Shown here piece by piece: positions 193-27,792 of a DNA stretch of 64,000 nt; position 1 is the stretch's first letter, and each line of letters opens with the position of its first letter. The notes under the pieces are model-generated. The model was not told the origin of the DNA. It did not search any database and was given only the letters and a program-made list of their open reading frames with translations. Origin of the DNA: Calditrichia bacterium. Its GTDB lineage: Bacteria > Calditrichota > Calditrichia > RBG-13-44-9 > J075. Position numbers and translations under genes: made by a program. The DNA is taken from positions 1 through 64,000 of the forward strand of contig JANQQU010000012.1 of assembly GCA_028284905.1 (NCBI GenBank), written 5' to 3'.

Positions 193-3100
193 CTAGCGAA
201 TGAGCAGCATCTTGCGAACCTTGCTAAATTTTTCCGTGACCATGCGGTAGAAGTAAAATCCGGAAGCAATCTGTTGCCCGCTTTCGTTTTTCCCATCCCA
301 GATGATCGTTTTATAGCCTGCCGGTTGGCGCTGATTTACCAGGGTTTTTATTTTCTGCCCGAGCACATTGTAAATCACTATCTTGACCTTGCTCGGTTCC
401 GGCAGATCGTAACGAATGGTGGTTGTCGGATTAAACGGATTCGGGAAATTGGGATGTAAAGCGAACACTTTTGGCAAGTTTCCATCTTCATCGATGCCCA
501 CTACAGTGGTATCAACCCGGGTGGCGACAATTGCGCTGACATCCAGGGGTTGAACATTACCGGTATTATCGCGGGCGATGCTGTAAATGCGATAGGTATG
601 TCCCAGCTCGCCGCGATAAATCTCTTGGGTAACGGTGGTGTCACTAAGCCATAGCTCGAAATCGCTGCTGTCCCTGGCGACATAAACATCATAGCTTTGC
701 AAACCGGCGCCGGGCGTAATATCTGCACCGGACCAGCTGACCTGAAATGATGGTGTAAGGGTTTGCGCGGCCAGGGTGTCGACGGCACTTTCCGGCGCAT
801 CGGCATCGATGGTATGGAAGATCGGGGGCGTGTCAATCGGTTCGTTGGTGTCGAAGACGATTTTTGCCTCCGCATTGATGACATCTCCGGATTGCACATC
901 GCTGTTGGCTGCAACCGTATAGCTGACGAACCCTTCGCCCCGTCCGCTGTTGTCGTTTACCGGGAGAAAACCGGCGAAGGGATTGGTAGGGGTTTGCCCG
1001 CTCACCGGATCAACAGAGTTGAAATTCCAGAAGATGGTTCTCGTGTTAAGATTGATGCCGGCAGTAATGTCCACATATACACCGAGGGAATCCACTACAT
1101 CCAATCGCTCGCTGAAATAGGCGCTATTCGCTGGTGGCGTAAAGACGAAATCGCCAAAGCCAAAGTTGCCGAGGCGATAGCTGCGGGCATCGATGGTGCT
1201 GTCCAGCTGTTGGGTAATATTCACCGCCAGGGCCGGGGCGCTGGCCAGAGTGGAATCATTCTCGAAACGAATGGTGTAGGGTAATACTTGATCTGCCGCT
1301 ATCCAGTTCTCGTCGCCAAAACCAGCCGGGCCGGTGATGTCGTTGGGGTCGAATGCACCGACAACAGTATTACAAAACCAAATAGAAAATTCTTGAATGA
1401 TTTTATTTATGAAACCGCGTCTTCTATTTTTTAACTCCTTATGAGGATCTTCTTTTAAGCCTTTTGATAAATCATAATTATCTTTTGCGTCCTTAATTGA
1501 GTCGTTTGAGTTTTTTAACGATTCCTTATCTGCGTCACACCACAGATATAAAGTATTACAGCCGAAATCCCATATTTCAAATCCAAGCCACGCTACTCCA
1601 GCAATTAAACCAATTGTCGGAGCAAATAACACCGATATACCAGCTCCCAGTATTCTTGCGGCCATAAGAATAACAGCCTTTCTAATAAGTTGTTCACTTG
1701 CTTCTTTCGTACTCAAGCCAAAAACAATCGAGTTTATTATTTGCTCACAAGTGAAAATTGAACTGGAATTTGTTAGATCAAATGGCTGAACGGTCGGTAT
1801 ATAATCCAAAGGAACAGTATTGAGCGTTAATTCTGAATCCCCCAATAATCCAATGTTTTCAAGCTCTAATATTAAATTTCTTAACCCGAATTGCTCAGTG
1901 TAAGCTTGATCAACCTTATCCTTTAAATCACTTTTAGGAATTAAATCTGAAAACTCTCCAAAATATGAAATCGTTGAAATTATTTGCAATATTAACTCAT
2001 ACTCTGGTATTGCATGAGCTTGAACGTAAATAGGACTGGTTCCATCGTTTGATCGAACATTATTTAATTTGATTTCGGCATTAAACTCTTGATTTGGCTT
2101 AAGATGTTTTCCTAGTCCGGATAACATTGCCAAATTATCAATTTGAATTCCAGTACCAATCATTGATAAATCGTTTATTATTGAATCTGGTGAGGGTATA
2201 CCCCAAAAATCAGGCCCTTCAATTTTTACATGCTGAAAAGCCGGTACGATCACTGTAATACCTACAAAATCAATATCAGTGTTGCCGATATTCTTAACAG
2301 TCAAACTGTAGCTTATATCTGAACCACTCCGAATATTATCGGGACCGACCAACTCTACTACAATTTCGTTTTCAATCAATTCTTCAACGCTAAAAAAAGC
2401 TGGTAATAAAATTTCCTCAAAATTGCTGCTTAGCAGTGTAGAGGGATTTTGAATGATAACGTCATATAAACCCAATGGAATATTTTCTAGATTCCATCTG
2501 GCGTTGACTTCGCTGCTATTAATAAAAAATACCTTTTCAGCCTGCAATAAAGAGTCTGGTGATATTCTTAAAAAGACTTTGGTTGAATCTCTGAAGCCAG
2601 CTCCTTTTAAGGTGGTAGTCACCCGACCATCTCTGCCGCCGTAATTAGGAAACATATCATTGACTGAAAATGGTAATGCTTCAGTACTAATGTTGATTTC
2701 CTGAAAACCTGTAGCCTGATTTCTTCCGTAAATCATCAAATAGTATGTACCATTTTCAGTACCCGGAATTAGCACCTCTTGATTCGCTGCAAAAGGCTCG
2801 ATTCCACTATGATCATAATCAGTTAATGTCGGTACTCGATCATATGCAATGTAGAGTTCGTTAGATGCATCTCCGGAATCTCCCTTTAGGACAAATTTTA
2901 AGTCGAGATCTGCCATTGCATCGACGCGATAATAAATCATTTGCCCTTCGACGATCTCAGTCGTATCTGCCGTTCCCAAACTCAACAACGGCACATTAAC
3001 TGATAAGGTATTTGCGGAAGCTTTACGATTATTCTCCAGATTGTCTTCGCGGATATTATTGCGGATATCGGTGCGGACGATGGCGTGATAGCTGCCCGGG

Positions 3101-6100
3101 ACAACGCCGGGCAGTGGATTCAATAAATTGCCGCTGGAGTCCGCTAAAATTGCTTCACTCAGCTTCACTCGCATCACTCTTTCTTGAGCGGCGCCGGGGG
3201 GCAGATTGATCAGGCGATAATCGCTGCCTACCAGCGGATCGTTTAGTCCCCAAAGTATATCTGCGGAGACGTACACCGCGTCGCGCAACCAGCCACTGGC
3301 GGGATTATTACCGATGTTGCGAATCGTCCAGCGAACTAAAATGCTGTCGCCGGAAAGTGCGCTGTCCGGTATGGCGATATTGCTAACGATCAAATCCGCC
3401 GGAGGAGGCAAGGTGAGAAAAATGGTTTCGCTGAGCATATTGTTTTCTTCGCCAAGATGCTCATAGACTTCATTCTGGGAATCGGTTCTAAAAATCAGAT
3501 AATAATTCCCGGAAAGATAATTCGGAAGATCATAGGAAACGGTATCGCTGTAGGATTCCTGTAGTGCAAGTGTTGCGCTGGAACGGGTAAATCCCAGAAA
3601 ACGATCGTCGCTGCTAAGGGCGGCATCGCGGGAAAGGTAAACTGCATCATTCCAGGCCCGATTACTGATGCTGCCTTCACCCTGATTTTCGACAGTGGTG
3701 ATAATCTCGATAGGCTGCCCGGCGATAACATTGCTGTTCACCGTCATTGTTATGGCAGCTAAATCGACCGGAGGACTTAAGCGGATCGGTAGCGGATGGG
3801 AAGAAACACCGAGGTCATTCGCCGGATTGCTGTCCTCAATGCGCCCATCGATATCCGGACGGACGATCAGGAAATAATTTCCGGAAATGCCGGACGGTAA
3901 AACTACATTGCGACTGAGTTGGTAACTTTGCCCGGGCACCAAAGTACCACTGCGGGGGAAAGCATCGATAAAAATATCCGTGTCGACATCGAAGAGTGTG
4001 TCAGCGGAAAGATAAAATCCATCCCGCCAACTGGGCGAAAGGGTAGGGGCAAGGCCAAGATTTTCGACCGACCATTGCAGACTAATCGATTCGCCAGATT
4101 CCGCGCTATCCGGAAATGCGAGTATGTCCGCTGCCAGATCCACCGGTGGATAGCCATTAATTTGTAGGGCAGAACTACTGCTGATATTATTCTCATTCGC
4201 CGGCGGATGTTCATACTCATTCCCCAGGCCATTGGTGAAGACGTGAAAATAACGCTCACCCTGAAAATTGCTGTTGAGGAAAATTAGCACTGTTTCATTA
4301 TAGCTCTCTTCAGGATTGAGACGGCCGTTATGGGAAATGGTTTGCAGCAGTGTTGCTGAGTTATTCCACACCGGCTGATCGGAGCTGTAGATATAATCTT
4401 TCCAGCTAGAATTTCGGGTGCGAGCGGCACCACTATTTTTTACAGTGTAATCGATACGTAGTTGATCGCCAACGTTCGCAGAATCCGGCAAAGTGATGCT
4501 GCTGACCAACAAATCCGCCCAAGGACTTAACTGGATTTGTGCCGCTGTGGCACTGCGCTGCCGGTTGTTCTCCTCCAAATCATTTTCGAAAACAGTTTCC
4601 CGGGCATCGGTTATGACAAAGAGGTAATAGTCTCCTTGTAAACCATTGGGGAGCGTAATCGTTGTTTCCGAGTTATAGAGGGAATCGACCGCTAGATCAA
4701 ACTCATGGGTTTTACTGCCGATCAGCGTGGCGCTGTCCGGAACGAATGTTGCCTGAGTGGAGAGGTAAAGGTCATCCTGCCATCTGCTGCCCAACACGGC
4801 GCCGCTGCCGATGTTTTTCACCGCCCATGATACGGTAAATGAATTTCCGGAGCTGCCGGTATCGGGAATGGCGATGGCATCGACTGCCAAATCAGCGAAA
4901 AAGACCGTGGTCGCTGCTGTTGCCCGGCGCAGGTTATTGGCATTAGCCGTATCCTCGAAAACTTCGTTCAGCCAATCACTTTCCAGGAACAACCAGTTCT
5001 GCCCGCTAAATCCCGCCGGAATCTTAACGGTCTCCTGCCGGTTATAACTTTCAGCGGGCGCGAGGGATTCCGCGATATTGAATACCCCGATTGCAACGGC
5101 GGAATCCGGATCGAAATTGGCTGAATTGGACAGATAAATCCGATCCCGCCAGGGGCCCTGGAAAACACTGCCGCTGCCATTGTTGGTTACCGTCCAGGAA
5201 ATATCGATGTTCCCACCAACGGTTGCCAGGGGAGCGGCAAGCAGGGAATCAGCGAACAGGTCCGGGTGAAGCACTGTAATTGTCGATGTGCTGCTGTTGG
5301 TATTATTGTCTTCCTGACTGCTGCCTTCAAAAACCAAATTGCCGGCATCCGTTTCCACATGAAAGTAATAATCGCCCTTGATATTGCCGGGCAGCGTGAC
5401 AGTTTCGTTGACGGTGTAACTATCGAAACGGGCTAAGATGCCATTATGAGAAAAAGTGCCGACAAGCGTAAGCGAATCGGGATGAAAAACGGCATTGGAG
5501 GACACATAAACGCGATCCTGCCAGAAAGATTCGAATGTATCATCCAGTCCATTGTTGGCGACGGTGAAGGAGATCGGGACGTTTTCCGCCACGCTGCCGG
5601 ATGCCGGAAAACCACTTACGTCGGTAACTTCCAAATCCGGCGGGGTATTGGTTAAGGGGACGGCAATTCTATGGATGTTGTTAAAGTCGCCGGTGTGCTC
5701 ATAAATATCACCGCGCTCGTTCGCTTTTGCGCCCGGGGTTGATGCATTGTAATCGGTATGCACGAAGAAGTATACCGTATCGCCGCTTTCCAGATTATGC
5801 GGCAGAGTAAACTGTCCACTGGCTGTGTAACTCTCCTGCGGTGCGAGAGCGCTGATGCGTTCTACTTTCAACGCTTCCGGATCATTATAGACAATCGTGT
5901 TCGGCGGAAGGGCCGGGAAAAAGAAGTTGAGGGTAGAATCTTCCGAGTAGAAAACTGTATCGAACCAATTCTCCGGCATAGTTGTGCCGCTGCCAGCATT
6001 GGTCACCGTCCATTCGATAGTGATGGTGTTGCCGGCGTTGGGGATTTCCGGTATCACTTGAGCTATGGTTACCTGCAAATCCGGAAGGTCCGGCAAATTA

Positions 6101-9078
6101 ACATCGATACCGGTCGCGGAACGGCCGCGATTATTGTTCTCATTCGATTCCGGCAATTGTCGGCGAATATCGCTTTCCACGAAGACGTAGTAATCACCTT
6201 CAAATCCCAGGGGCATGGTAAAGTTTTTTGTATTGAGATAGCCTTCTCCGGGCGAGAGATAAGAGAAGTTTTGAAAATCGCCCAACTGAATCGCCTGCTG
6301 GGGAATAAAGATTGAAGTCGCGGAGAGATACACACGATCATACCACTCCGGCACGTCGGTACCCTGGCTGCCCTGGTTCGTTACGGCCCAGGTCACGGTG
6401 AAGGGTTGCCCGGAAATCACTGAAACCGAGGTTTGTACTTCTGTGACGATCAGATCCGCAAAAGCAGGTGTTACAGCGATACTAACCGAAGCTGTATCAC
6501 GATTGCCTTCGGGATCCTGGATGAAATATTCAAATCCGTCATTGCCGGTAAATCCAGTCTGCGGCGTGTAGATAAAGGAACTATCGCCGGACTGGGTAAC
6601 CGATCCGTTAAAGGGTTGAAGAAAATCGATAATCGATAATGCAGCGTTGCCGGTATGGAAATCATTGGCGAGAACGTTCACCGTAATCGACGTATTCAAG
6701 GTAGTTGTTGCAGCGTCATCCCGGGCGACAGGCAGCGTTAAGGTGGAATCGCCATACAACAGGGCAATTTCTTCGACACTTAAATTCCGGTCATAAACGA
6801 AAACATCGTCGATACTGCCGGAGAACCAACGAGGCCCATGCCGGCTCCTTAACCCGATGCGAATCGGATAAGTATTATGATTCATCGTGCCGCCGCTACC
6901 AGAATAACCGCCATCCACTTCCTGCCCATCGACAAATAATTGTATGTCCGCCGGTCCGTTAACCACCATCGCGACATGTACCCATTGATCCAGTGGTAGT
7001 GGCGTTATAGTGGCTTTACTTCTCCGGTCGGAAATAAATGGCCCACTACCATCGCCAAAGCTAACAAATAGTTGATTACCTGTGGTGAGTTCCGCCCAGA
7101 AGCCATGATAATTGCCGGTGATGGCATCGGGGTTATCATCCGAGCTAAAGATGCCATGCCAGGCAGTTGGGTCATCATTGTAAATCCAGGCTGCAAGGGT
7201 AAATGGAACGGTCACCTCGTTCAGGCCATCTCCGCATTCGATGAAATCATCGACGCCGTCAAATTGAAAGGCACTATTGGGAGTGTTATTGCGATCCTCA
7301 GCTAAAACTGCACCGAAAGCAGTGCCATTATTGCCATTACCGCTTTCATCATTGGCATTGCCGTTAAACGGGTAGTAGGCGACCAGGCCGTCGGTTACTG
7401 GTGGACCTTGAATAACGTGTACGTTCACCTGCGCGGTATCCAGTAATCCCTGATTATCGCTAATGATGTAAGTGAATTGATCCAGTCCGGTAAATCCATT
7501 CGTTGGGGTGTAGGTGATGGAGCTATCGCCCGGACCAATCGATACGATGCCAAAGGTTGCAGGAAAGGCTGCGCTGATCGTTAAAGAGGATTGTGCCGGA
7601 TGAGAATCGTTGCGGAGTACATTGACGGTGACCGCTTCATCTCTAAATGTAGTAACGTTATCATCCAGGGCCAGTGGCTGGTTCGGCCAGCCGCCTTCTT
7701 CATACAGCGCTTTAATTTCCGAAGGTGTGAGAATAAGTGAATAAGTGCGGATGTCATCAATACTGCCGGAAAAATAATCGCTGCTGCCCTGAGCATTGCG
7801 GCCAATTGCAATTACGTGGGGCTGGTCGATGCCCCCCCAGGATCCACCATTATTACTATCGACGGCGACCAGCTCTCCATCAATATAGAGCTGTCCAGTA
7901 CGCGGACCATCCCGTACCGCTACGACATGATGCCAGTTGTTGTCATTGAAAACACTATCTGTCAGCATATCTCCATTGGCCCCGGGGCCGTTAGTGTAAA
8001 AAAAACGTAACTGTCCGGTATTCAGAATACGGAGCATGTAATAATCGGATGATTGGGGATTTTCCCGGAAAGAGAAGATTGTGCCGGCGTTCTCAGCGGT
8101 TTTAAACCAGGCGGAAACTGTATAAGGAGAGATATCGCTGGAGCCGCCGGGTAATTCAATATAATCCTGCCCGCTAAACAGATAGGCGCTGGCCGTTACG
8201 CCAAATCGGTCGGCAGTCAAGCTTGCACCGAAGACGGTACCACTGTTGCCGTTGCCGCTTTCATCGTTGGCATTGCCGTTAAAGGGGAAATAGGCGAGCA
8301 GGGTTGTATTATGCCAGGCTGCAGGTTGCAGATTGGTATTTCCATTTAAATCGCCATGATTGCTATTGCTGCTATAATCCCGAACATCATCGTTACCGTC
8401 GCCGTTAATGCCCAGATCGTCTAAATCATCCATGCGCCAATAACCGATCAGACCGCTGTCCGGTGTGGTGTAATAATTCGCACTTAAAGTATCGTTGAGG
8501 GTGCTGATGATTTGTGCTTCCGTTCGTACGACCTTCCAGACTCTTGCTTCATCGATAAACCCGTCAAAAAATTGGTTACCTATTTGTCTGCCACCGGCTC
8601 GCAATTGATCGGAATTGGCATGAAAATCACCAATATTCCCCTGGATTGCCCAAGTGTGTACCAGAGCCCCATTCAGGTAAGTTTTAGCATTGGGTAGATC
8701 ATAGACTATCGCGACATGTGTCCAGGTATTTAAAGGAGCAACAACGTTCGTGTTTACCCAATTCCATGCTGGGGAAGCATTGGCAAAAGCCCATCGGATC
8801 GTACCGTCGGCAAAGCGGGCAAACTCATATTCTCCTTCTTTATTAAGAATGATTCCCCCAAAAGAAGTTGCGCCGTTTCCGGTAGGATAAATCCAAGCCT
8901 CCAACGTAATAGCCTCGGAAACTTCTAATGAAGTATCTTCGCCCATATTGATATAATCAGCAAACCCATCAAACGCAGCAGCATTTCCGGCAAGATTTTG
9001 CGCAAAAGATGAAAAGCTGAAAAGGATAATAAAACTGAATATAATGAATAAACACTGAGCTTGAATCTTAAAATGCAT
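193..9078 (-). CDS. Giant secreted LamG/CARDB surface protein with T9SS sorting domain
   Basis: A 2961-residue protein, probably a surface adhesin or glycan-binding scaffold. Residues 1-27 are a signal peptide ending FSSFAQ. Three LamG/concanavalin-like domains follow (about 30-240, 255-460, 560-780); the second and third start with near-identical NGNANDESGNGN text. Two cadherin-like Ig domains of the VNVLxND...YTPxxGFTG type lie near 465-555 and 785-870. Nine CARDB-type repeats of about 125 residues (starts such as ADLIVTEV, PDLEVTDV, ADLAVDAI) fill 875-1990. Next come an IPT-like and a DUF11-like stretch, a hydrophobic cysteine-containing helical segment near 2390-2480, a DPNDITGPAGFG-led domain, a fibronectin-like domain, and a T9SS type A sorting domain (about 2872-2961; FPNPFNPTTTIRY, ending KMLLIR). 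The DNA for residues about 2040-2566 is clearly more AT-rich than the rest. The start is ATG with a weak ribosome site. The domain calls are firm; the ligand is unknown. Confidence 0.88.
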   Translation of the reverse strand: MHFKIQAQCLFIIFSFIILFSFSSFAQNLAGNAAAFDGFADYINMGEDTSLEVSEAITLEAWIYPTGNGATSFGGIILNKEGEYEFARFADGTIRWAFANASPAWNWVNTNVVAPLNTWTHVAIVYDLPNAKTYLNGALVHTWAIQGNIGDFHANSDQLRAGGRQIGNQFFDGFIDEARVWKVVRTEAQIISTLNDTLSANYYTTPDSGLIGYWRMDDLDDLGINGDGNDDVRDYSSNSNHGDLNGNTNLQPAAWHNTTLLAYFPFNGNANDESGNGNSGTVFGASLTADRFGVTASAYLFSGQDYIELPGGSSDISPYTVSAWFKTAENAGTIFSFRENPQSSDYYMLRILNTGQLRFFYTNGPGANGDMLTDSVFNDNNWHHVVAVRDGPRTGQLYIDGELVAVDSNNGGSWGGIDQPHVIAIGRNAQGSSDYFSGSIDDIRTYSLILTPSEIKALYEEGGWPNQPLALDDNVTTFRDEAVTVNVLRNDSHPAQSSLTISAAFPATFGIVSIGPGDSSITYTPTNGFTGLDQFTYIISDNQGLLDTAQVNVHVIQGPPVTDGLVAYYPFNGNANDESGNGNNGTAFGAVLAEDRNNTPNSAFQFDGVDDFIECGDGLNEVTVPFTLAAWIYNDDPTAWHGIFSSDDNPDAITGNYHGFWAELTTGNQLFVSFGDGSGPFISDRRSKATITPLPLDQWVHVAMVVNGPADIQLFVDGQEVDGGYSGSGGTMNHNTYPIRIGLRSRHGPRWFSGSIDDVFVYDRNLSVEEIALLYGDSTLTLPVARDDAATTTLNTSITVNVLANDFHTGNAALSIIDFLQPFNGSVTQSGDSSFIYTPQTGFTGNDGFEYFIQDPEGNRDTASVSIAVTPAFADLIVTEVQTSVSVISGQPFTVTWAVTNQGSQGTDVPEWYDRVYLSATSIFIPQQAIQLGDFQNFSYLSPGEGYLNTKNFTMPLGFEGDYYVFVESDIRRQLPESNENNNRGRSATGIDVNLPDLPDLQVTIAQVIPEIPNAGNTITIEWTVTNAGSGTTMPENWFDTVFYSEDSTLNFFFPALPPNTIVYNDPEALKVERISALAPQESYTASGQFTLPHNLESGDTVYFFVHTDYNASTPGAKANERGDIYEHTGDFNNIHRIAVPLTNTPPDLEVTDVSGFPASGSVAENVPISFTVANNGLDDTFESFWQDRVYVSSNAVFHPDSLTLVGTFSHNGILARFDSYTVNETVTLPGNIKGDYYFHVETDAGNLVFEGSSQEDNNTNSSTSTITVLHPDLFADSLLAAPLATVGGNIDISWTVTNNGSGSVFQGPWRDRIYLSNSANFDPDSAVAIGVFNIAESLAPAESYNRQETVKIPAGFSGQNWLFLESDWLNEVFEDTANANNLRRATAATTVFFADLAVDAIAIPDTGSSGNSFTVSWAVKNIGSGAVLGSRWQDDLYLSTQATFVPDSATLIGSKTHEFDLAVDSLYNSETTITLPNGLQGDYYLFVITDARETVFENDLEENNRQRSATAAQIQLSPWADLLVSSITLPDSANVGDQLRIDYTVKNSGAARTRNSSWKDYIYSSDQPVWNNSATLLQTISHNGRLNPEESYNETVLIFLNSNFQGERYFHVFTNGLGNEYEHPPANENNISSSSALQINGYPPVDLAADILAFPDSAESGESISLQWSVENLGLAPTLSPSWRDGFYLSADTLFDVDTDIFIDAFPRSGTLVPGQSYQLSRNVVLPSGISGNYFLIVRPDIDGRIEDSNPANDLGVSSHPLPIRLSPPVDLAAITMTVNSNVIAGQPIEIITTVENQGEGSISNRAWNDAVYLSRDAALSSDDRFLGFTRSSATLALQESYSDTVSYDLPNYLSGNYYLIFRTDSQNEVYEHLGEENNMLSETIFLTLPPPADLIVSNIAIPDSALSGDSILVRWTIRNIGNNPASGWLRDAVYVSADILWGLNDPLVGSDYRLINLPPGAAQERVMRVKLSEAILADSSGNLLNPLPGVVPGSYHAIVRTDIRNNIREDNLENNRKASANTLSVNVPLLSLGTADTTEIVEGQMIYYRVDAMADLDLKFVLKGDSGDASNELYIAYDRVPTLTDYDHSGIEPFAANQEVLIPGTENGTYYLMIYGRNQATGFQEINISTEALPFSVNDMFPNYGGRDGRVTTTLKGAGFRDSTKVFLRISPDSLLQAEKVFFINSSEVNARWNLENIPLGLYDVIIQNPSTLLSSNFEEILLPAFFSVEELIENEIVVELVGPDNIRSGSDISYSLTVKNIGNTDIDFVGITVIVPAFQHVKIEGPDFWGIPSPDSIINDLSMIGTGIQIDNLAMLSGLGKHLKPNQEFNAEIKLNNVRSNDGTSPIYVQAHAIPEYELILQIISTISYFGEFSDLIPKSDLKDKVDQAYTEQFGLRNLILELENIGLLGDSELTLNTVPLDYIPTVQPFDLTNSSSIFTCEQIINSIVFGLSTKEASEQLIRKAVILMAARILGAGISVLFAPTIGLIAGVAWLGFEIWDFGCNTLYLWCDADKESLKNSNDSIKDAKDNYDLSKGLKEDPHKELKNRRRGFINKIIQEFSIWFCNTVVGAFDPNDITGPAGFGDENWIAADQVLPYTIRFENDSTLASAPALAVNITQQLDSTIDARSYRLGNFGFGDFVFTPPANSAYFSERLDVVDSLGVYVDITAGINLNTRTIFWNFNSVDPVSGQTPTNPFAGFLPVNDNSGRGEGFVSYTVAANSDVQSGDVINAEAKIVFDTNEPIDTPPIFHTIDADAPESAVDTLAAQTLTPSFQVSWSGADITPGAGLQSYDVYVARDSSDFELWLSDTTVTQEIYRGELGHTYRIYSIARDNTGNVQPLDVSAIVATRVDTTVVGIDEDGNLPKVFALHPNFPNPFNPTTTIRYDLPEPSKVKIVIYNVLGQKIKTLVNQRQPAGYKTIIWDGKNESGQQIASGFYFYRMVTEKFSKVRKMLLIR

Positions 9079-10182: not shown

Positions 10183-10794
10183 ATGGGACTACGAAAATCG
10201 ATTAAGAAAATGAAGCCGCCCAGACCATGGCGCAATGCAGTACTGATATTGATGGGGATGATTGTCGGTTTGTCACTTTACCTGGCGCATGTCGCCAACG
10301 TTACTTCCTACCTGACAGATGATCCGAAAGCATGTGTAAACTGCCACGTAATGACGCCGCAATTCATTACCTGGAATCACAGTTCCCACCGGGAAGTTGC
10401 CACCTGTAACGACTGCCATGTGCCCCAGGATAACGTCTTCAAGAAATATCTGTTTAAAGCGAAAGATGGCCTCTATCATGCCACCATTTTCACTTTGCGT
10501 GCCGAACCGCAGGCGATCGTTATGCACGAAGCCGGACAGGAAGCGGTGCAGGGGAATTGCATTCGCTGCCATGGGGATCAGGTAACCGATCCGAAATCGA
10601 TGTCCTGGATTGACTCTCATGAGGCAAGCCGCACAGACAGAACCTGCTGGGATTGCCATCGGGAGATACCGCATGGTCGCATTCGCAGCCTAACATCTGT
10701 AGGGCTTCGCCTGGAACCGCTACCAGTGCATGAACAGGAAAAGTCGAAAACGCCGGGCTGGATGAAAACTAAAAAAGAAACCAACAATTATTAA
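10183..10794 (+). CDS. nrfH: Cytochrome c nitrite reductase small subunit NrfH
   Basis: A 203-residue NapC/NirT-family membrane cytochrome that takes electrons from menaquinol and passes them to NrfA. One N-terminal membrane anchor (about residues 20-38, VLILMGMIVGLSLYLAHV) is followed by exactly four haem sites, CVNCH, CNDCH, CIRCH and CWDCH, as expected for NrfH. The periplasmic part is of normal length. AAAGGATG precedes the ATG. nrfA starts 9 bases after the stop, so the two form an operon. The C-terminal tail is lysine-rich and probably unstructured. Confidence 0.96.
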   Translation: MGLRKSIKKMKPPRPWRNAVLILMGMIVGLSLYLAHVANVTSYLTDDPKACVNCHVMTPQFITWNHSSHREVATCNDCHVPQDNVFKKYLFKAKDGLYHATIFTLRAEPQAIVMHEAGQEAVQGNCIRCHGDQVTDPKSMSWIDSHEASRTDRTCWDCHREIPHGRIRSLTSVGLRLEPLPVHEQEKSKTPGWMKTKKETNNY

Positions 10795-10803
10795 GAGGGC
10801 AAT

Positions 10804-12312
10804 ATGAACGAGAAGATGAAGAACTGGTTGTTGTTTCTGGCAACTGTAGCTGTTGTGGTGTTGCTTAGCTTGCTGGTAAACAGCGTTGTGAATCGGAAAG
10901 CGGAATCGCAGTTTGCTTATCAACCGCAGGTTGATATTATGGAGAATGAGCCAAGAAATGAAGTTTGGGGACAAAATTTCCCCCGTCAATATGAATCATT
11001 TATGCGCACGGCTGATACGTCCTTTGTATCTTACTTGAATGGCTCAAAATTACGGGATGCACTGGAAGAGAATCCGGAACTGGTCGTACTTTGGGCCGGA
11101 TACGGATTTGCGAAAGATTACAACCAACCGCGTGGGCATGCTTACGCAGTTGAAGATATTCACAAGACTTTACGCACCGGTGGCCCGGTGGGACCAGGCA
11201 CCGGCCCGATGCCAAATACCTGTTGGAGCTGTAAGAGTCCGGATGTGCCCCGCATGATGGCAGAGAAAGGCGTTGCCGAATTCTACCAGGGGAAATGGGC
11301 GGATAAAGGCTCGGAAGTTGTCAATGCCATTGGTTGTGCGGATTGCCATAATTCCGAAGATATGTCTCTACAGATTTCCCGGCCGGCGTTGGTGGAAGGA
11401 TACGAATCGATGGGGAAAGATATCAACGAAGCTACCCACCAGGAAATGCGCTCCCTGGTCTGCGCGCAGTGTCACGTGGAATATTATTTCGATAAAAACC
11501 TTCCTGGTAAAGAAGGCACGCCGTATCTCACCTTCCCCTGGAAAAACGGTCTGTCCGTGGAAGCCATGGAAAAATACTATGATGACATGAACTTCAAAGA
11601 CTGGACGCATACAATCAGTAAAGCGCCAATGTTGAAATCGCAGCATCCGGGATACGAGCTGTACACATCCGGTATCCATGCCAAACGCGGCGTGGCCTGT
11701 GCGGATTGCCATATGCCTTTCCAGTCTGAAGGCGGTCAAAAATTTACCGATCACCATATTCGTTCCCCACTGGCAAACGTTGCGAACGCCTGTCAGGTTT
11801 GCCACCGTGAAGAGAAAGAGAACTTGCTGGCGAATGTGTTTGATACTCAGAAGAAAATTAAATCTACTCAGGGTGATCTTGAAAAATTACTGGTGCGTGC
11901 CCATGTGGAAGCAGGTAAGGCCTGGGAGCTTGGCGCAACCGAAGCGGATATGAAGGGTATTTTGATGGACATCCGCCATGCCCAGTGGCGCTGGGACTAT
12001 TCCGTGGCATCCCACGGCGGTAGTTTCCATGCCCCGGTAGAAGCGAGCAGAATTGTTTCTACGGGTATGGTGAAGGTGCAGGATGCCCGGGTTAAGCTGG
12101 CAAGATTACTCGCTAAATTAGGCTTTAAAGGCGAGGTGCCTTATCCCGATATCAGCAGTAAGGCAAAAGCACAGGCGTTTATCGGTCTGGATGTGGAGAA
12201 GATGATTCAAGAGAAGGAAAAATTCTTGAAAGAGCTGCTTCCGAAATGGATGGAAGAAGCAGAAAAACGGCAGGCGGCAATGCCGATTGTGGCGCCGAAT
12301 GCCAGTCATTAA
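10804..12312 (+). CDS. nrfA: Ammonia-forming cytochrome c nitrite reductase catalytic subunit NrfA
   Basis: A 502-residue periplasmic pentahaem enzyme that reduces nitrite to ammonium with six electrons, giving the host respiratory ammonification (DNRA). The catalytic haem has the diagnostic lysine-ligated site CWSCK at residues 140-144. The four others are CADCH, CAQCH, CADCH and CQVCH. An N-terminal hydrophobic segment (about 6-25) is a signal or anchor. The GAGGG ribosome site overlaps the end of nrfH. All five haem sites are intact and the length is normal, so the enzyme should be active. Confidence 0.97.
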   Translation: MNEKMKNWLLFLATVAVVVLLSLLVNSVVNRKAESQFAYQPQVDIMENEPRNEVWGQNFPRQYESFMRTADTSFVSYLNGSKLRDALEENPELVVLWAGYGFAKDYNQPRGHAYAVEDIHKTLRTGGPVGPGTGPMPNTCWSCKSPDVPRMMAEKGVAEFYQGKWADKGSEVVNAIGCADCHNSEDMSLQISRPALVEGYESMGKDINEATHQEMRSLVCAQCHVEYYFDKNLPGKEGTPYLTFPWKNGLSVEAMEKYYDDMNFKDWTHTISKAPMLKSQHPGYELYTSGIHAKRGVACADCHMPFQSEGGQKFTDHHIRSPLANVANACQVCHREEKENLLANVFDTQKKIKSTQGDLEKLLVRAHVEAGKAWELGATEADMKGILMDIRHAQWRWDYSVASHGGSFHAPVEASRIVSTGMVKVQDARVKLARLLAKLGFKGEVPYPDISSKAKAQAFIGLDVEKMIQEKEKFLKELLPKWMEEAEKRQAAMPIVAPNASH

Positions 12313-12321
12313 ATCCGTGAA

Positions 12322-12349
12322 TCAATCATGATTGACCGGTATTAACCGG
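12322..12349. promoter_or_regulatory. Two adjacent perfect palindromes downstream of nrfA
   Basis: TCAATCATGATTGA at 12322-12335 is a perfect palindrome, and CCGGTATTAACCGG at 12336-12349 is a second one directly behind it. They lie between nrfA and the barrel protein gene. They could be an operator or a weak attenuating hairpin. The first has the wrong half-site orientation for an FNR box (TTGAT..ATCAA). Confidence 0.3.
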
Positions 12350-12396
12350 AAAATAAGTAAATCATGGAATCAACAAAATTATAGTAGGGCTGAAAG

Positions 12397-13611
12397 ATGA
12401 AAACGATGAGAATGATAGCGATTTTACTACTTACGGCATTCGCAAGCACGATATTTCCGCAAACTGACTGGCAGCTGGACGGGCAGATTCGTCACCGCAT
12501 CGAGCTTGATAACCGTGATTTTAATAGCGACACCAATATTAATAGTTACAATCTATTAAGGTCTCGAATCGGTTTAACGATGAAGGTATCTGATAGCCTC
12601 TCAGGATACTTCCAGATACAGGACAGTCGCCGTTTTGGCGAAGAACAATCCACCCTGGGTGATGGCAGCGCAGACAATCTTGATTTTCACCAGGCCTATA
12701 TACAGATCGGAAATCTCTTTAATCTGCCGGTTAATGTTAAACTGGGACGTATGGAGGTCATTCAGGGCTCACAACGGTTCATCGGGGCCGTGGGCTGGCA
12801 CAATGTCGGGCGCAGCTTCGACGGGGTAATATTTAAATGGTTTAATGGTAAGAATTACATCGATATATATGCTTTCCAGGAAGTCGAAAGCAATGCCGCT
12901 GAGAATGATGGGGATAAAGGCGTTTATGGATTGAACGGCAATTTTCCATTAAATACGGATGTGACAGTTCAACCGTTTTTTATTTGGCAGCGGACAAACC
13001 CAAACGATGATTTAAACCGTTTTACCACGGGATTATACTTAAAAGGAAAAGCCGCCGGACAATTGGCTTACGAAGTAGATTTAGCCTACCAGGGCGGAAA
13101 GCTGGCGAAGCAGGATGTAACCGCGACATTGGCAGCTGCAAATGTTAGCTATACCTTTAAATCCAGCGCGAAGCCTACCTTGAAGGTGGGAGTGGATTTG
13201 GTCAGTGGAGATGATGACTTCGGCGATGACAAGGTAAAGGCGTTCGATACCATGTATGCCACCAATCATAAGTTTTACGGGTTTATGGATTATTTTCTGA
13301 ATTTGCCTGTGAACACCCTCGGACGTGGTTTGATTGATAGTCATGTGAGTCTTAGTATTAGCCCGAAGCAGAAAAGTCGTTTTAGCGTTATTTTTCATCG
13401 GCTGGCAGCACAACAGGATTTTGTTACAGACGGTGGAGAAACGGCGTCCCTCTTTGGGAATGAAATCGACCTTATTTATTCGCTGAAATATAGCAAAAAC
13501 GTAAATTTAACCGGTGGATTTGCAATCTTTTCACCAGGTGAAATATTCAAACAAACCCGTGGGGAAGATACTTCAACCTGGGCATTTGTGATGACGACTG
13601 TGCGTCTGTAG
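12397..13611 (+). CDS. Outer membrane beta-barrel protein, alginate-export-like porin
   Basis: A 404-residue protein with a signal peptide (1-20, ending IFPQ) followed by alternating amphipathic strands rich in aromatic residues and ending in a strand AFVMTTVRL, typical of an outer membrane barrel. The segments RHRIELDNRDF, LLRSRIGLTMKV, RLGRMEV-like KLGRMEVIQGSQRF and GRSFDGVIFKW match the alginate-export/AlgE-like porin family. It lies 84 bases behind nrfA on the same strand and may be co-transcribed, perhaps supplying an outer membrane pore. The real substrate cannot be read from the sequence. The family name does not imply alginate here. Confidence 0.75.
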   Translation: MKTMRMIAILLLTAFASTIFPQTDWQLDGQIRHRIELDNRDFNSDTNINSYNLLRSRIGLTMKVSDSLSGYFQIQDSRRFGEEQSTLGDGSADNLDFHQAYIQIGNLFNLPVNVKLGRMEVIQGSQRFIGAVGWHNVGRSFDGVIFKWFNGKNYIDIYAFQEVESNAAENDGDKGVYGLNGNFPLNTDVTVQPFFIWQRTNPNDDLNRFTTGLYLKGKAAGQLAYEVDLAYQGGKLAKQDVTATLAAANVSYTFKSSAKPTLKVGVDLVSGDDDFGDDKVKAFDTMYATNHKFYGFMDYFLNLPVNTLGRGLIDSHVSLSISPKQKSRFSVIFHRLAAQQDFVTDGGETASLFGNEIDLIYSLKYSKNVNLTGGFAIFSPGEIFKQTRGEDTSTWAFVMTTVRL

Positions 13612-13670: not shown

Positions 13671-13710
13671 GACTAAAGGGTTGCGAAGAATTTTTCGTAA
13701 CCCTTTAGTC
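13671..13710 (-). terminator. Intrinsic terminator between convergent genes
   Basis: A 17-base stem (GACTAAAGGGTTGCGAA against its complement with one mismatch) closes a 6-base loop. Read on the minus strand it is followed by TTTTA, so it fits the end of the methyltransferase gene. On the plus strand it is followed by TATATAAT and may also stop transcripts from the barrel gene. Confidence 0.8.
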
Positions 13711-13717
13711 TATATAA

Positions 13718-14263
13718 TCAACGCTTAACATAAAAATAGTATTTATGCCGGTTGAACGTTTTTGTTAGATACTCAGAAGTACTTAAGGGAGGAAATTTGT
13801 ATTTGTCGAAAAGATTTAGTGCCTGGCATTCTTCCAGAGGAAAGGGACGGCGTTTGGCGATATCATTCCATCCCAGAATAAAAACTCCCTCCGCGCGGAG
13901 GCATTGATAACATTTCCGAAACGCTTTTTCTACATCTTCCCGCTCATCCAGCCCCCAACCGAAAACACCATTACAGACAATCAAATCTAATGAATTCTCA
14001 GCAAAATGTTGATCAATATTCTCAAGCGTATCGGTAATGTGCTGCTTTGCGCCATGTTTTCTTTGTCGCTGGTCCACGTCTAAAGTCCAGTAATCCTTCT
14101 GTTGAAATTGCGTATTATAGTTCCGGGTATACCATTTACATCCGACGAAGAGTATCCGCGAGAATTCGTTTTTTGGAATAAAGTAGGGGAAGATAACTTC
14201 TCTTAGTATATAACGGTCATCTAAGACTTTGTGCATCAGGTTGGTTAGGATTTTAATTGCCAT
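13718..14263 (-). CDS. Small class I SAM-dependent methyltransferase-like protein
   Basis: 181 residues with a Rossmann methyltransferase layout: a beta strand RILFVGCKWYT where the glycine-rich SAM loop should be (unusual VGCxWYT form instead of GxGxG), an acidic strand-end YWTLDVD, an ITDTLENID stretch, then SLDLIVCNGVFGWGL and the FILGWNDIAKR region typical of motifs IV-VI. The substrate is unknown. It lies 77 bases downstream of the SIR2-TPR gene on the same strand, with a terminator right behind its stop, so the two may form one transcription unit. It could be a housekeeping enzyme rather than a partner of SIR2. Confidence 0.72.
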   Translation of the reverse strand: MAIKILTNLMHKVLDDRYILREVIFPYFIPKNEFSRILFVGCKWYTRNYNTQFQQKDYWTLDVDQRQRKHGAKQHITDTLENIDQHFAENSLDLIVCNGVFGWGLDEREDVEKAFRKCYQCLRAEGVFILGWNDIAKRRPFPLEECQALNLFDKYKFPPLSTSEYLTKTFNRHKYYFYVKR

Positions 14264-14340
14264 GTTTATGTTATTAAAAAGATTTTTAGGAATAATTTGG
14301 AGAGGAAAAAAGCTGCCCGATTCAATATCTTACACAATTA

Positions 14341-16788
14341 TCAGGGTTTAATACTTTCCGATTTTTTGATAAGTAATTTTATCGCAGGATGGTTATCTTC
14401 GACGATAGGTTTTAAAATACTTAAAGCTTGCTGATAACTATCTTTGGCATTTTGATGGTCATTAAGACCTTGGTAAGCATCGCCCAGGATGCTAAAACAG
14501 ATTCCTTCTCCTTGCTTATCCCCTGTTTCCTTGAAAATTATATTCGCTTTGTTACAATATTCTATAGCTCTATTATAATCTTCAAGGGTATTATAAATAT
14601 CAGCAAGATTAAACAGAACAACGCCTTCATTCGATTTATTTCTAATTTCTATCGCGATCTTTAAAGCTTTCTCAAGCTTTTTAATTGCCATCGGATAATC
14701 ATCAAGGCGTCTGTGTAGTTTACCGAGGGATATTAGTATCTTTCCTTCTTCTTTGTTATTAGTTTCCTTTGCGATAAAAAGCGCCTGATATAAATGTTCT
14801 TTTGCGGTTAAAAGATCACCCAGGTTTTCATAAGTTGTCCCTAAATTGTAAAGCCATACGCCTTCGAGTCTTTTTTCGCCAATTTCTCTGGTGACACTTA
14901 GCGCTTGTTCCAAATTATCTTTCGCCTTTAGATAATCGCCCAGGCTGTTATGAGTTTGTCCCATACCGCCTAGCCATTTTGCTTCCCCCAGTCTGTCCCC
15001 AATTTTTTGAGAAATGTATAAGGCTTTTTTATAGTTTTCAAGCGCTTTAAGGGGTTCTCCGCTACTTTGGTTAACACCGGCTATGCAGCCAAACCAGCTT
15101 TCTTGCCCTCTTTCATCACCAATTTCTGTGCTGATCTTCAATGCTGTTTCAAAATTACATAAGGCTTTGGTATGATCACCCAGATTATAATATACGGTTC
15201 CCAAATTGCCAGACCACATTCCAATTTGATGTTTATCACCAATTTCTATCGCGATACGTCGTGCTTTTTCAAGATGATTTTCTGCCTCTGAATATTGACC
15301 ACAAGACTGGTAAGTCATTCCCAGGTTACCAATGCAGCTACATTCAGAGCGCTTGTCGCCAATTTCTTTGGATATGAATATGGCTTCTTTTAAGCTTTCA
15401 ATTGAGTTTATATAGTCAGCAATTTTCTCATATGCTTCGCCCAGGCCATTAAGCCAGAGAACTCTGGTTTGTTTATCATCGATTTCTGTTGCAAAATTTA
15501 ATGCCTGTTGATAACAGTTGATCGCTTTTGGATAATCACAAAGCGCGGAGTAAGTGAACCCTAAGTTTCCGATAAGACTATATTGTTTTTTTCTATTATC
15601 AACACCATTAAAAATATCCAATGCCATATTAAAGTAGTCTTGCGCTTTTTTGTGATTACCTTGTCCTAAGTAAATATTTCCTAAATTACCCCGGGCCCGT
15701 CCTTCTCCTTCTTTATCTCCTAATTGCTGGGCAATTTTTAAAGCTTTTTCATAATTTTCTATTGCAGGCTCAAAATTTGATATTCTATAAAAAACAGTGC
15801 CAGCGATGCTATATTTCATTCCACTTGAAAAAATCTCTATGGTACTAAGAAACCAGCGATTTACATATTCCTGCCATTCGATCTTCAGTGATGGAGGTTT
15901 CAGAGATACCTCCCTTTTTTCAGCAAGGCAGGAATCCCATATCTTGTTTATCAGTTTGGCTGTGTCATGTATAACCCAATTACTCTCAGGAAATTTTTTA
16001 AATGGGTTGTTTTGGGTTTTATCTGCCAGGTTTTTGACTCTTGGCTCATTTTCCTTTTGGTCTTCTGGTTTATTTTCCAGATGGTCTATTAGAAATATTC
16101 TTTTGTAATCTGATTTAATAGACTCGATTTGCGGAGAAATATCAAAAAGGTCTGAACAACTATACCCCAATATTAAGACTTTTCTATGCTGGCCTTTTGA
16201 GAAAATATACTCGATAACCTTTTGGCGTTGACGCGAAAGTACCTGTGATGCGACTTGTTTTAGTGTGATGGCCATATTTTCTTTATCTTCAACACTGCCG
16301 TGTATTTTAATCAGGCGAATGATGTCTTCATTCCAATCAATCTGTTTTAAATCGATATCTTTGGAGAAGACACGATAGTCTTTGTCTCTTATGAGGCCCT
16401 CACTCTCAAAAGCCCTTTCAATTAGAAGGTCAAAATTTGTAGTACAAATTGTGGTAACAAAGCCTGCTTTCGCTAACCCGGCTAAGAGAAGATGATTTGT
16501 ATTCGGTTCGCCTAATTCGAATATCTTAAGAATTTTTCGTAAATCGCTGTTCTCGCGTAAAATTTCTATAAATGCTTCGAAAGGAAGCCCCGCCTCTATA
16601 ATTTTCTCCACATCCTCGGGCGAAACATCTAATTTGTTCAGTACCTCACGTACTAAACTATTAGCCAGGGGCAGGCCAGAATTCAGTGAAATCCCCGCCC
16701 CACAGAATACAACAACCTCTTTATGCTTTATTGCCGTATCCAATTCAGCAAGGAACTTTTCAAAGATCTCGGAATTTTTCTTACTCAA
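14341..16788 (-). CDS. SIR2-like NAD-hydrolase domain fused to twelve TPR repeats (candidate defence protein)
   Basis: 815 residues. The N-terminal 270 residues are a SIR2 domain with visible NAD-site elements: FCGAGIS (about 30), TTNFDLL (about 115), the catalytic-histidine motif KIHGS and LGYSCSD (about 208). After a linker, residues about 323-805 hold twelve TPR units of almost exactly 40 residues with the pattern GNLGxxYxxLGDxxKA...ALxIAxEIGDK. SIR2 domains with sensor repeats are known in anti-phage proteins that deplete NAD; that role here is inference. The start is TTG with a GAGGAT ribosome site 7 bases upstream, and no internal methionine precedes the SIR2 fold. The gene is markedly AT-rich compared with the nrf and carbohydrate genes, which suggests acquisition. 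Confidence 0.85.
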   Translation of the reverse strand: MSKKNSEIFEKFLAELDTAIKHKEVVVFCGAGISLNSGLPLANSLVREVLNKLDVSPEDVEKIIEAGLPFEAFIEILRENSDLRKILKIFELGEPNTNHLLLAGLAKAGFVTTICTTNFDLLIERAFESEGLIRDKDYRVFSKDIDLKQIDWNEDIIRLIKIHGSVEDKENMAITLKQVASQVLSRQRQKVIEYIFSKGQHRKVLILGYSCSDLFDISPQIESIKSDYKRIFLIDHLENKPEDQKENEPRVKNLADKTQNNPFKKFPESNWVIHDTAKLINKIWDSCLAEKREVSLKPPSLKIEWQEYVNRWFLSTIEIFSSGMKYSIAGTVFYRISNFEPAIENYEKALKIAQQLGDKEGEGRARGNLGNIYLGQGNHKKAQDYFNMALDIFNGVDNRKKQYSLIGNLGFTYSALCDYPKAINCYQQALNFATEIDDKQTRVLWLNGLGEAYEKIADYINSIESLKEAIFISKEIGDKRSECSCIGNLGMTYQSCGQYSEAENHLEKARRIAIEIGDKHQIGMWSGNLGTVYYNLGDHTKALCNFETALKISTEIGDERGQESWFGCIAGVNQSSGEPLKALENYKKALYISQKIGDRLGEAKWLGGMGQTHNSLGDYLKAKDNLEQALSVTREIGEKRLEGVWLYNLGTTYENLGDLLTAKEHLYQALFIAKETNNKEEGKILISLGKLHRRLDDYPMAIKKLEKALKIAIEIRNKSNEGVVLFNLADIYNTLEDYNRAIEYCNKANIIFKETGDKQGEGICFSILGDAYQGLNDHQNAKDSYQQALSILKPIVEDNHPAIKLLIKKSESIKP

Positions 16789-25000: not shown

Positions 25001-26854
25001 TCAATCCGACGGCACATTCAACGGCGCATTTACCCCAACATCCGTGCGCGTATAAACCAATACCATTTTGCAGGGACGTTCGCCTTGATTGGTAATCGTA
25101 ACCTTTCCACAGGCAGCTGGGATTAACATCGATTCCAGATACGCTAGCTCGCTCTCGGTGCCGCTCTCGGTAACAATCTTTATCCTTTCGCCTTCAACCA
25201 AATTGACAGCGAAACCACGGTCATTGGTTTCGAAGGAAAATGTGCTGGCAAAATCTGCCCGGTGGATGTTGTAAAAGCTGAAAGGTTTATCATATAATAC
25301 AACTTCTTCCCAATCTTCTCCTTTGCGGAGCAGTGCCGGCTTTGCCAGTAAATTTTTCCGCACCCAATCTTTCCGGCGCTCAAAATAGATGTTTTCCCAG
25401 GCGCGCTCAATATTCATCGGGCGAAAATTTCCTTCCAGGTCCCGGCGGAGGTAATCATAAATCTTAAATGTGAAAATATAGGGCGTGGCGCTGATTTCCA
25501 GAACCAGATTGCCGGTGCCGCTGCAGTGCACAGTGCCATTGGGGATCAGGAATAGATCGTGCGGCTGCGCCGGTTCGCTGTGAACATATTTATCGATGTC
25601 AACTGCTTTCCCTTCACGATGAGAAGTTTCCAGCGCCTCGCGAAATTCATCCGGATCGCAATCGTCGGTTAAGCCGAGATAAACCAGTGCGCCAGCCTTC
25701 GCATTGGAGATGTAGTAAGTTTCATCCTGTGTATAGGTTTCCCCAAAGTGCTTCCGCATAAAATTGGGACGGGGGTGGCATTGGGTGGAAAGATTGCCGC
25801 CGTCAATCGTGTCCAGGTAATCGAGGCGAATGGGAAATTCGTATTTAAACTGGCGAGCGGCTGCTGTGCCCATCACCCGTTGATTTTCCTGGAACATCAG
25901 GCAATCGAAAGAAAATTCCAGGCGTTGCCCATCCTTTTCAAGAATAACGCCGTTCTCCGGAACGATCATTTCGAAGGACCAGGCAAAATTGGGCTGCTCG
26001 GGATCGAGGCCCATATGTCCTTGCATATATTTTCCGCCCCAGGGACCGGGGTAAAACCACGGCCGCGGACGAAAGGGTGATGACGCTAATTCGCGAAGTG
26101 TGGCCCGAAAATCATCCCCGGTCATTGCAGCCGGGGAACCAGCATCCTGCAGATCGATATAGCAATCCAACTGGGGAAGCAACTGCCTTTTTTGCCGACC
26201 GAGAGCTGGCCATTCGACAAAATATGTGCGCTTGTAAAACTGGCCGAAAGGAACCGGCTGGCTTTCGCCGAGGTTGGTAATCTCCTGACGTCGCGCGCGG
26301 AATTGCAAGGCATCTTTGGGGATATCGAGATACCAAAGTTGATCCCACAATTCCAGCAAACCGGCACCGCAGCCATAAATAATCGTTAAGTCACCGGCAG
26401 CATTACCACGGGCCATTGCGGAGCGGATGCGGACATCAGCCAGCTTTTTGGCATCAAAGAAAACATCCATGCCCAGGGGAAAGTGTGTGCCCCATAAAGG
26501 ATCGTCCCCACCTAAAAAAGGAGTGATGCGTTCCTCGATCGCAGATGCATCTGCGAGACAATCAGATAAATCGATCCATTCCGGGGAAATGGATTGTTTT
26601 TTTAGCGCATCGGAAACTGATTTCTGAAAAGATTGCCAGTCAACACCATGAAAACCATCGATGACCAAAACGCGCAATCCCTGCGGAATCGCAGTTGAAA
26701 TATTCTCTGCCAGATGTGTATAACCTGCATTTATCGCTCCATGAGAAGGAGTAAAGGCCGGAAAAAGTTCGAATAAACCGCGGGGGTATTCCGTTTGGGT
26801 ATCAGGAAGCGGTGCGGTAAATATGTCGTTTTTGCCATTCTGCTTGGCGGTCAT
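25001..26854 (-). CDS. Class I mannose-6-phosphate-isomerase-like enzyme with an extra N-terminal domain
   Basis: 617 residues, about 200 longer than a standard class I isomerase. The C-terminal half is the cupin isomerase: QCHP near residues 357-361, the ETYYI glutamate near 377 and NGTVHCSG near 441 supply the usual zinc ligands. The N-terminal 200 residues look like a P-loop kinase/uridine-kinase fold (VLVIDGFHGVDW, DVFFDAKKL, IIYGCGAGLL) in which the Walker A loop is replaced by DGFHGVDW, so nucleotide binding is doubtful. AAGGAG precedes the ATG. It is the last gene of the minus-strand operon, 20 bases behind the ROK kinase, and would feed mannose- or fructose-type sugars into glycolysis. 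No signal peptide. Confidence 0.8.
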   Translation of the reverse strand: MTAKQNGKNDIFTAPLPDTQTEYPRGLFELFPAFTPSHGAINAGYTHLAENISTAIPQGLRVLVIDGFHGVDWQSFQKSVSDALKKQSISPEWIDLSDCLADASAIEERITPFLGGDDPLWGTHFPLGMDVFFDAKKLADVRIRSAMARGNAAGDLTIIYGCGAGLLELWDQLWYLDIPKDALQFRARRQEITNLGESQPVPFGQFYKRTYFVEWPALGRQKRQLLPQLDCYIDLQDAGSPAAMTGDDFRATLRELASSPFRPRPWFYPGPWGGKYMQGHMGLDPEQPNFAWSFEMIVPENGVILEKDGQRLEFSFDCLMFQENQRVMGTAAARQFKYEFPIRLDYLDTIDGGNLSTQCHPRPNFMRKHFGETYTQDETYYISNAKAGALVYLGLTDDCDPDEFREALETSHREGKAVDIDKYVHSEPAQPHDLFLIPNGTVHCSGTGNLVLEISATPYIFTFKIYDYLRRDLEGNFRPMNIERAWENIYFERRKDWVRKNLLAKPALLRKGEDWEEVVLYDKPFSFYNIHRADFASTFSFETNDRGFAVNLVEGERIKIVTESGTESELAYLESMLIPAACGKVTITNQGERPCKMVLVYTRTDVGVNAPLNVPSD

Positions 26855-26874
26855 GGGAATCTCCTTTTTTACTG

Positions 26875-27792
26875 CTAGCGTTCGAGGTTGAGGTCGGGAT
26901 GAAATGCCGCGCCAATGGCTGCCGCCCGGTTGCCAAGCGCTGCCGGCTGGATGTCCACGGAATTTCGGGGAACCGTCCAGGCCATTTGGTGCACCTGCTC
27001 TATTAAGCCTGGCAGGATTAGTGAAGCGCTGTTCATTACACCGCCCCCGAGGACAATCCGATCCGGCCCATACGCATGAATTACATTGACAATACCAATG
27101 GCCAAATCTCTTTGAAAAGCTTTCAGCGTCGTTATATAACCACTATCGCCAGCAGCTATTTTATCAAAAAATGGGGGCAGGGGATCAGCCTTGTTTTCTA
27201 AATCGGGATGAGCGTTGCGAATACGTTTGGCGAAAGCAGGGGCAGAACAATAGACTTCCAGGCAGCCATAATTGCCGCAAGGACAGCGGGGTCCATTTCT
27301 GTCGATACTGATATGACCGCCGAGAATGCCACCGAGGGCATCGCTTCCCTGGTAAGGATGCTGATCCTTGATGAGTGCGCAGCCAAGGCCGGTGCCCAGG
27401 GTCATACAAACCTGGACTTTGCTCCCTTTTCCAGCCCCGAATAACCATTCTCCCCAGGCATAGGCGCGCGCGTCATTTTCCACGCAGAATGGAACGCCCA
27501 ATGCATCGCCAAAAGTAGCACGAAGATCGCGGCCGGCAAGCATGGCACCGGCGCCAATGTCATCCTCTAATATTCCGGTTGCGGAGTTGACCAGCCCTTT
27601 AATCGCCAACCCACCGCCACGAATCGATTTGTTCGCAGCAAATTTCTGCGCATGGGAAAGCAAATTGTCTAATAAATTGCCATTGCCGGTAAAGGTTGTT
27701 AAGGGATGTTCGATGAAGTCGACCACTGAGCCATCTTCATGGAAAATGCCCGTCTTTAAATTGGTGCCGCCAAAATCCATCCCGAATCTCAT
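26875..27792 (-). CDS. ROK-family sugar kinase
   Basis: 305 residues from the ATG at 27792, chosen because GGAG lies 9 bases upstream; a TTG 12 bases earlier would overlap the esterase. It has the phosphate loop GMDFGGTNLKTG, ENDARAYAWGEW, TLGTGLGCAL and an intact ROK zinc site CPCGNYGCLE. Members phosphorylate glucose, mannose, fructose, ManNAc or GlcNAc at C6. The neighbouring isomerase-like gene favours mannose or fructose. The ATG follows the esterase stop by one base, so translation is probably coupled. Confidence 0.9.
   Translation of the reverse strand: MRFGMDFGGTNLKTGIFHEDGSVVDFIEHPLTTFTGNGNLLDNLLSHAQKFAANKSIRGGGLAIKGLVNSATGILEDDIGAGAMLAGRDLRATFGDALGVPFCVENDARAYAWGEWLFGAGKGSKVQVCMTLGTGLGCALIKDQHPYQGSDALGGILGGHISIDRNGPRCPCGNYGCLEVYCSAPAFAKRIRNAHPDLENKADPLPPFFDKIAAGDSGYITTLKAFQRDLAIGIVNVIHAYGPDRIVLGGGVMNSASLILPGLIEQVHQMAWTVPRNSVDIQPAALGNRAAAIGAAFHPDLNLER

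Follow-up and report, generated by a model that had tools for sequence, protein, structure and literature searches.

A SIR2-TPR protein of a Calditrichia bacterium as a candidate NAD-depleting effector, and its most likely incidental methyltransferase neighbour

We analyzed a window of 64,000 nucleotides, the whole stretch of DNA considered here, and focused on a gene for a SIR2-TPR protein and the methyltransferase gene that follows it. We consider it rather probable that the SIR2-TPR protein is a stand-alone sensor-effector acting by NAD depletion, and that the adjoining methyltransferase is no part of this system. The preliminary description had proposed a two-gene defence system. This proposal found no support: homologues of the methyltransferase occupy at least six differing neighbourhoods, a SIR2 gene was found at none of ten such loci, and the fusion itself has no second example in our sample.

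Architecture and relatives of the SIR2-TPR protein

The SIR2-TPR gene (14341-16788, minus strand) is a stop-free frame of 815 aa with Pfam matches to SIR2_2 and TPR models. The TTG start was confirmed. The bases 5' of it read ATGAGGATAAACTG-TTG and include a GAGG Shine-Dalgarno-like stretch, which makes a plausible ribosome-binding site. The SIR2 domain of NADase type occupies about residues 1-240 (16069-16788, minus strand; Pfam and alignment). SIR2_2 matched residues 113-239 with an E value of 4.1e-14 and 53.3 bits against a cut-off of 24.5, which places the domain in this family. A short linker (residues 240-325) had no Pfam match of its own. It is followed by exactly twelve TPR units (14398-15816, minus strand, residues 325-797), the number that had been described from the letters. 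They are of the LGN/Pins-like 40-residue type and spaced by 39-40 aa, and each scored more than 47 bits against a model derived from the array itself. TPR_12 and other Pfam TPR models covered residues 330-795 (E 4.9e-79). AlphaFold2 predicted a regular alpha-solenoid over residues 340-795, with pLDDT of about 60-90 over most units; the single-sequence model of the SIR2 domain was unusable (pLDDT 20-46). The SIR2 domain is thus joined directly to the solenoid with no NTPase domain between them, and no NTPase family was present among the 25 Pfam matches listed for the protein.

All four motifs reported earlier were found on the minus strand: GAGIS (16687-16701, residues 30-34), TTNFD (16429-16443, residues 116-120), KIHGS (16294-16308, residues 161-165) and GYS (16159-16167, residues 208-210). 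The domain was aligned with a KomC-like protein, three SIR2 proteins encoded in small genomes of the cyanobacterial phylum set and three from a Thoeris context. Invariant positions were G30, A31, G32 and S34, T116, T117, N118 and D120, K161, H163 and G164, and G208, S210 and D213. These include the catalytic Asn of TTN(F/Y)D (N118) and the catalytic His of K(x)HG (H163). H163 aligns with H146 of KomC, the residue changed in 9xvc. By alignment, N118 and H163 correspond to N133 and H171 of DSR2, mutation of either of which lowers NADase activity (PMC10981675). The PSW segment of the SIR2 relatives reads PLAN (PLANS) in our protein, and at the DPN that follows GYS in the relatives it has a longer, extra segment, GYSCSDLFDISPQ. 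Because of these two departures, the handling of NAD might differ.

The solved sequences nearest to the domain were 7uxt_B, the KomC NADase (8zsf) and ThsA, and the best SIR2 matches in PADLOC were ThsA models (60 and 51 bits). The paired Cys of the sirtuin zinc finger (Cys4 site) are absent from the SIR2 domain, and the CobB model scored 27.6 bits, far under its cut-off of 320. Since zinc Cys pairs are lacking, scores lie far under deacylase cut-offs and relatives come from NADase contexts, NADase activity is favoured over deacylation. The sequence therefore supports assignment to the putative defence NADase type rather than to the deacylases. With the Asn and His conserved in KomC, ThsA and other relatives, it also supports the suggestion that SIR2 joined to a repeat sensor makes this a probable NAD-depleting defence protein.

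We searched the SIR2 domain in 385 genomes (phylum and wider domain), in 292 genomes of the cyanobacterial phylum and in a plasmid collection. No second SIR2-TPR fusion was detected among about 675 sampled genomes, in which the scan for TPR units covered the best long proteins. The sample holds one genome per species for a few hundred species, so the single fusion reflects a sampling limit and is no proof of rarity. The SIR2 relatives were mostly 22-39% identical over partial lengths, and those whose C-terminal parts were scanned had no TPR array of the same kind. The 12-TPR-unit model gave no match above the inclusion threshold in the open reading frames of 16 SIR2-relative loci; it did find its positive controls, P0002 and an unrelated TPR lipoprotein. 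One 902-aa SIR2 protein (G226) had TPR-like helices by eye, but a scan of 785 aa of it gave no TPR match at 1e-5. The TPR arrays of the plasmid collection most similar to ours belonged to cyanobacterial TPR and CHAT-TPR proteins (28-38% identity, largely TPR consensus).

Thoeris and Kongming are NADase defence contexts. Of the plasmid relatives of the SIR2 domain that we inspected, three (L108-L110) adjoin TIR genes and are Thoeris-like. In a fourth (L112; NZ_CP114196.1, Vibrio plasmid pHLA), the SIR2 gene directly follows genes for adenosine deaminase and purine NTP pyrophosphatase, a set that we take to be a Kongming-like locus. Alongside L111, neither TIR nor deaminase or pyrophosphatase genes were annotated. 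A second SIR2-domain protein of about 680 aa, with no TPR array noted, is encoded in the genome of the window (G000:C36, about 77166-77840) and in G034, a relative of the same family (G034:C76, about 26293-26988). We found no relatives of the SIR2-TPR protein or the methyltransferase in viral contigs and no match to the methyltransferase in phage records; on these grounds, we rejected the idea that one or the other gene came from a virus or a mobile element.

The methyltransferase and its genomic contexts

The methyltransferase gene (13718-14263, minus strand, 181 aa) lies 77 bp downstream on the same strand, as had been noted, and matched Methyltransf_11 above the cut-off (E 7e-8). Its motif I, ILFVGCKWYT (14126-14155, minus strand, residues 37-46), is family-wide: I37, L38, F39, V40, G41, C42, W44 and T46 were invariant when five homologues were aligned. 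D62, the acidic residue of motif II, was also invariant in the five, and the protein belongs to the class I SAM-dependent methyltransferases. The SAM loop had been called unusual. The loop is present, but since ILFVGCxWxT is invariant in the aligned homologues, it is a family trait and not a peculiarity of this protein. Using a modest model (pLDDT 66), Foldseek returned many Rossmann methyltransferases with a probability of 1.0; these matches were class I methyltransferases of a generic kind, acting on small molecules or RNA.

Homologues were 33-64% identical overall. Identity was 58-64% for those of three Calditrichia genomes, of which the third matched only partially, 44-57% for cyanobacterial ones, 44% for that of Sinorhizobium pSymB and 33% for that of a Novosphingobium plasmid. 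The family is small and sporadic. One Calditrichia homologue (G017:C109:14648-14929; L019, L005), downstream of mutS2, carries a stop, keeps an open frame of only 98 aa and is apparently a pseudogene, so the methyltransferase is dispensable there. In the pair L003 and L004, L003 comes from a 6 Mb genome titled Candidatus Gracilibacteria; its methyltransferase locus closely matches one of the cyanobacterium Hydrococcus, which suggests a mislabelled bin.

The contexts of these homologues varied. Depending on the locus, the gene followed mutS2 and preceded an M28 peptidase gene, diverged from an FAD oxidoreductase gene, lay close to DUF362 and aspartase-like genes, adjoined an SBP_bac_5 gene, adjoined a two-component pair, belonged to an exopolysaccharide-like cluster of pSymB (glycosyltransferase, epimerase, UDP-sugar dehydrogenase, FkbM methyltransferase) or stood among metal-resistance genes of a plasmid. 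Neither SIR2 nor the TPR array was detected at any of the ten distinct methyltransferase loci outside the genome of the window (tblastn, E 0.1). Likewise, no matching SIR2 domain was found in any of five methyltransferase-bearing genomes; this search had no positive control of its own, and the same query matched the genome of the window and others in a separate search. The test of co-occurrence is therefore good when it starts from the methyltransferase but very limited when it starts from SIR2, as the sample contained no second SIR2-TPR protein. The preliminary description had listed a lack of conserved co-occurrence among its refuting outcomes, and for the methyltransferase this outcome was observed. 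Since the methyltransferase is found elsewhere without SIR2-TPR, there is no evidence for one joint system. We rejected such a system, and the pairing is most likely incidental.

On the plus strand, the genes nrfH and nrfA of a cytochrome c nitrite reductase precede a porin-like gene (10183-13611). A hairpin (13671-13710; -23.3 kcal/mol, z -7.7) separates the convergent porin and methyltransferase genes and is followed by TTTT on the minus strand. It occurs once in the genome, so we rejected an origin from a repeat family. As it also stands at the end of the porin gene, it is probably a bidirectional terminator, and the terminator proposed after the methyltransferase gene is borne out to this extent. 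GC content was 37.5% in the SIR2-TPR gene and 40.5% in the methyltransferase gene, compared with roughly 44-50% in the genes upstream of the hairpin. The AT-richness claimed earlier for the SIR2-TPR gene is thus real relative to that flank, but the gene on the far side, a Reg_prop two-component hybrid, is also AT-rich (GC 41.5%). The related genome G034 keeps the order nrfH-nrfA-porin with neither gene after the porin; therefore the segment with both genes is lineage-specific. PADLOC gave no match of note in the seven neighbouring genes; the sole weak one was to the two-component protein, within its histidine-kinase ATPase region. A defence island was rejected, the surroundings being metabolic and regulatory.

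Comparison with known defence systems

A SIR2 NADase fused to a repeat sensor is a recognised anti-virus design. We compared the SIR2-TPR protein with four systems. The defining features that we tested for DSR1, for Avs5, for Thoeris and for Kongming are lacking, and the protein is best classed as unassigned. Like DSR1 and DSR2, it is a single large protein with an N-terminal SIR2 NADase domain, a C-terminal helical sensor and the conserved catalytic Asn and His. However, it scored 30.3 bits on the Dsr1 model NF041818 of NCBIfam (cut-off 1400), in the SIR2 part only, and 28 bits on the PADLOC Dsr1 model, with no full-length family match; the comparison covers Dsr1 models, as no DSR2 model appeared among the matches. 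Its sensor is a canonical TPR array, and it has 815 aa against the 1263 positions of the Dsr1 model.

Avs5 (AVAST type 5, SIR2-STAND-TPR/Sel1) shares the N-terminal SIR2 effector and C-terminal repeats of TPR type. The STAND NTPase is absent from our protein, in which SIR2 ends near residue 240 and the TPR units begin at 325. The homologous SIR2 domain of Thoeris ThsA (SIR2-STALD) matched residues 9-246 (PADLOC, 60 bits); the match stops at residue 246 with none in the STALD part, and the PADLOC scan found no neighbouring TIR (ThsB) gene. KomC of Kongming has a homologous SIR2 NADase domain (E 2.8e-10), but KomC is a protein of 264 aa without a TPR array, and the neighbours here are nrfHA, the porin and the two-component hybrid instead of adenosine deaminase and pyrophosphatase genes. 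In the literature searched, the term "SIR2-TPR" was not found; Avs5 and STAND proteins came up, with no direct fusion. TPR-bearing Avs5 with SIR2 provides immunity against jumbo phage (PMC12931631).

Proposed mode of action and alternatives

Judging from its domains, the SIR2-TPR protein probably acts in the manner of other SIR2 NADases under the control of a sensor, such as DSR2 and the Avs5 effectors. The TPR array would bind a particular trigger protein, most plausibly of phage origin, and binding would switch the SIR2 domain on, allosterically or via oligomerisation. The active domain would hydrolyse NAD+, and the infected cell would stop growing. DSR2 is reportedly an NADase triggered by a phage tail tube protein, with a halt of cell growth. 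The methyltransferase is probably a SAM enzyme of the small-molecule or glycan type and shares the strand by chance. Against this explanation, no defence genes lie nearby, no orthologous fusion indicates selection, and the common strand and 77-bp gap would allow co-transcription of the two genes.

We regard it as unlikely that the SIR2-TPR protein serves a role other than anti-phage defence, that is, another form of regulated cell death, stress control or deacylation, with TPR units that sense a host protein. The nitrite reductase, porin and two-component genes around it, the lack of a defence island and the CHAT and other TPR proteins of cyanobacteria as closest arrays in the plasmid collection would fit such a role, but the SIR2 sequence is nearest to NADase effectors and far from CobB, and it has no Cys4 site. 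An inactive protein or remnant seems barely credible. Although no orthologue was found and the protein departs from its relatives at PSW and DPN, the frame is full-length with a plausible ribosome-binding site, and all catalytic residues and twelve regular TPR units are intact.

It is very unlikely that the two genes form a true module, with the methyltransferase either as an immunity factor that restrains the SIR2 NADase or as a modifier of the TPR sensor, of the trigger or of the product. The genes share a strand and one end hairpin across the short gap, both are AT-rich relative to the upstream flanks, and both are missing after nrfHA-porin in G034, so they may have been gained together. 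However, SIR2 was missing from all ten loci with methyltransferase homologues, which represent at least six unrelated contexts; the methyltransferase was not found in phage and viral collections, and its copy in G017 is disrupted. A one-gene, NTPase-free effector in which the TPR solenoid directly gates the NADase and the methyltransferase tunes it appears highly improbable; the evidence is compatible with the one-gene effector but argues against the tuning.

If active, the stand-alone SIR2-TPR protein would add one more to the SIR2 NADases that a repeat sensor gates, here with canonical TPR units and no NTPase, from a poorly studied phylum. It would lengthen the list of sensor modules and leave the mechanism unchanged. 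The architecture is modestly interesting, while the pair is ordinary as a system, and the main value of the check is that it keeps a spurious two-gene "system" off the record.

Elsewhere in the window (193-9078, minus strand), we noticed a gene for a secreted protein of 2961 aa, whose LamG-like and CARDB-like repeats and sorting-type tail at the C-terminus were recognised by eye only.
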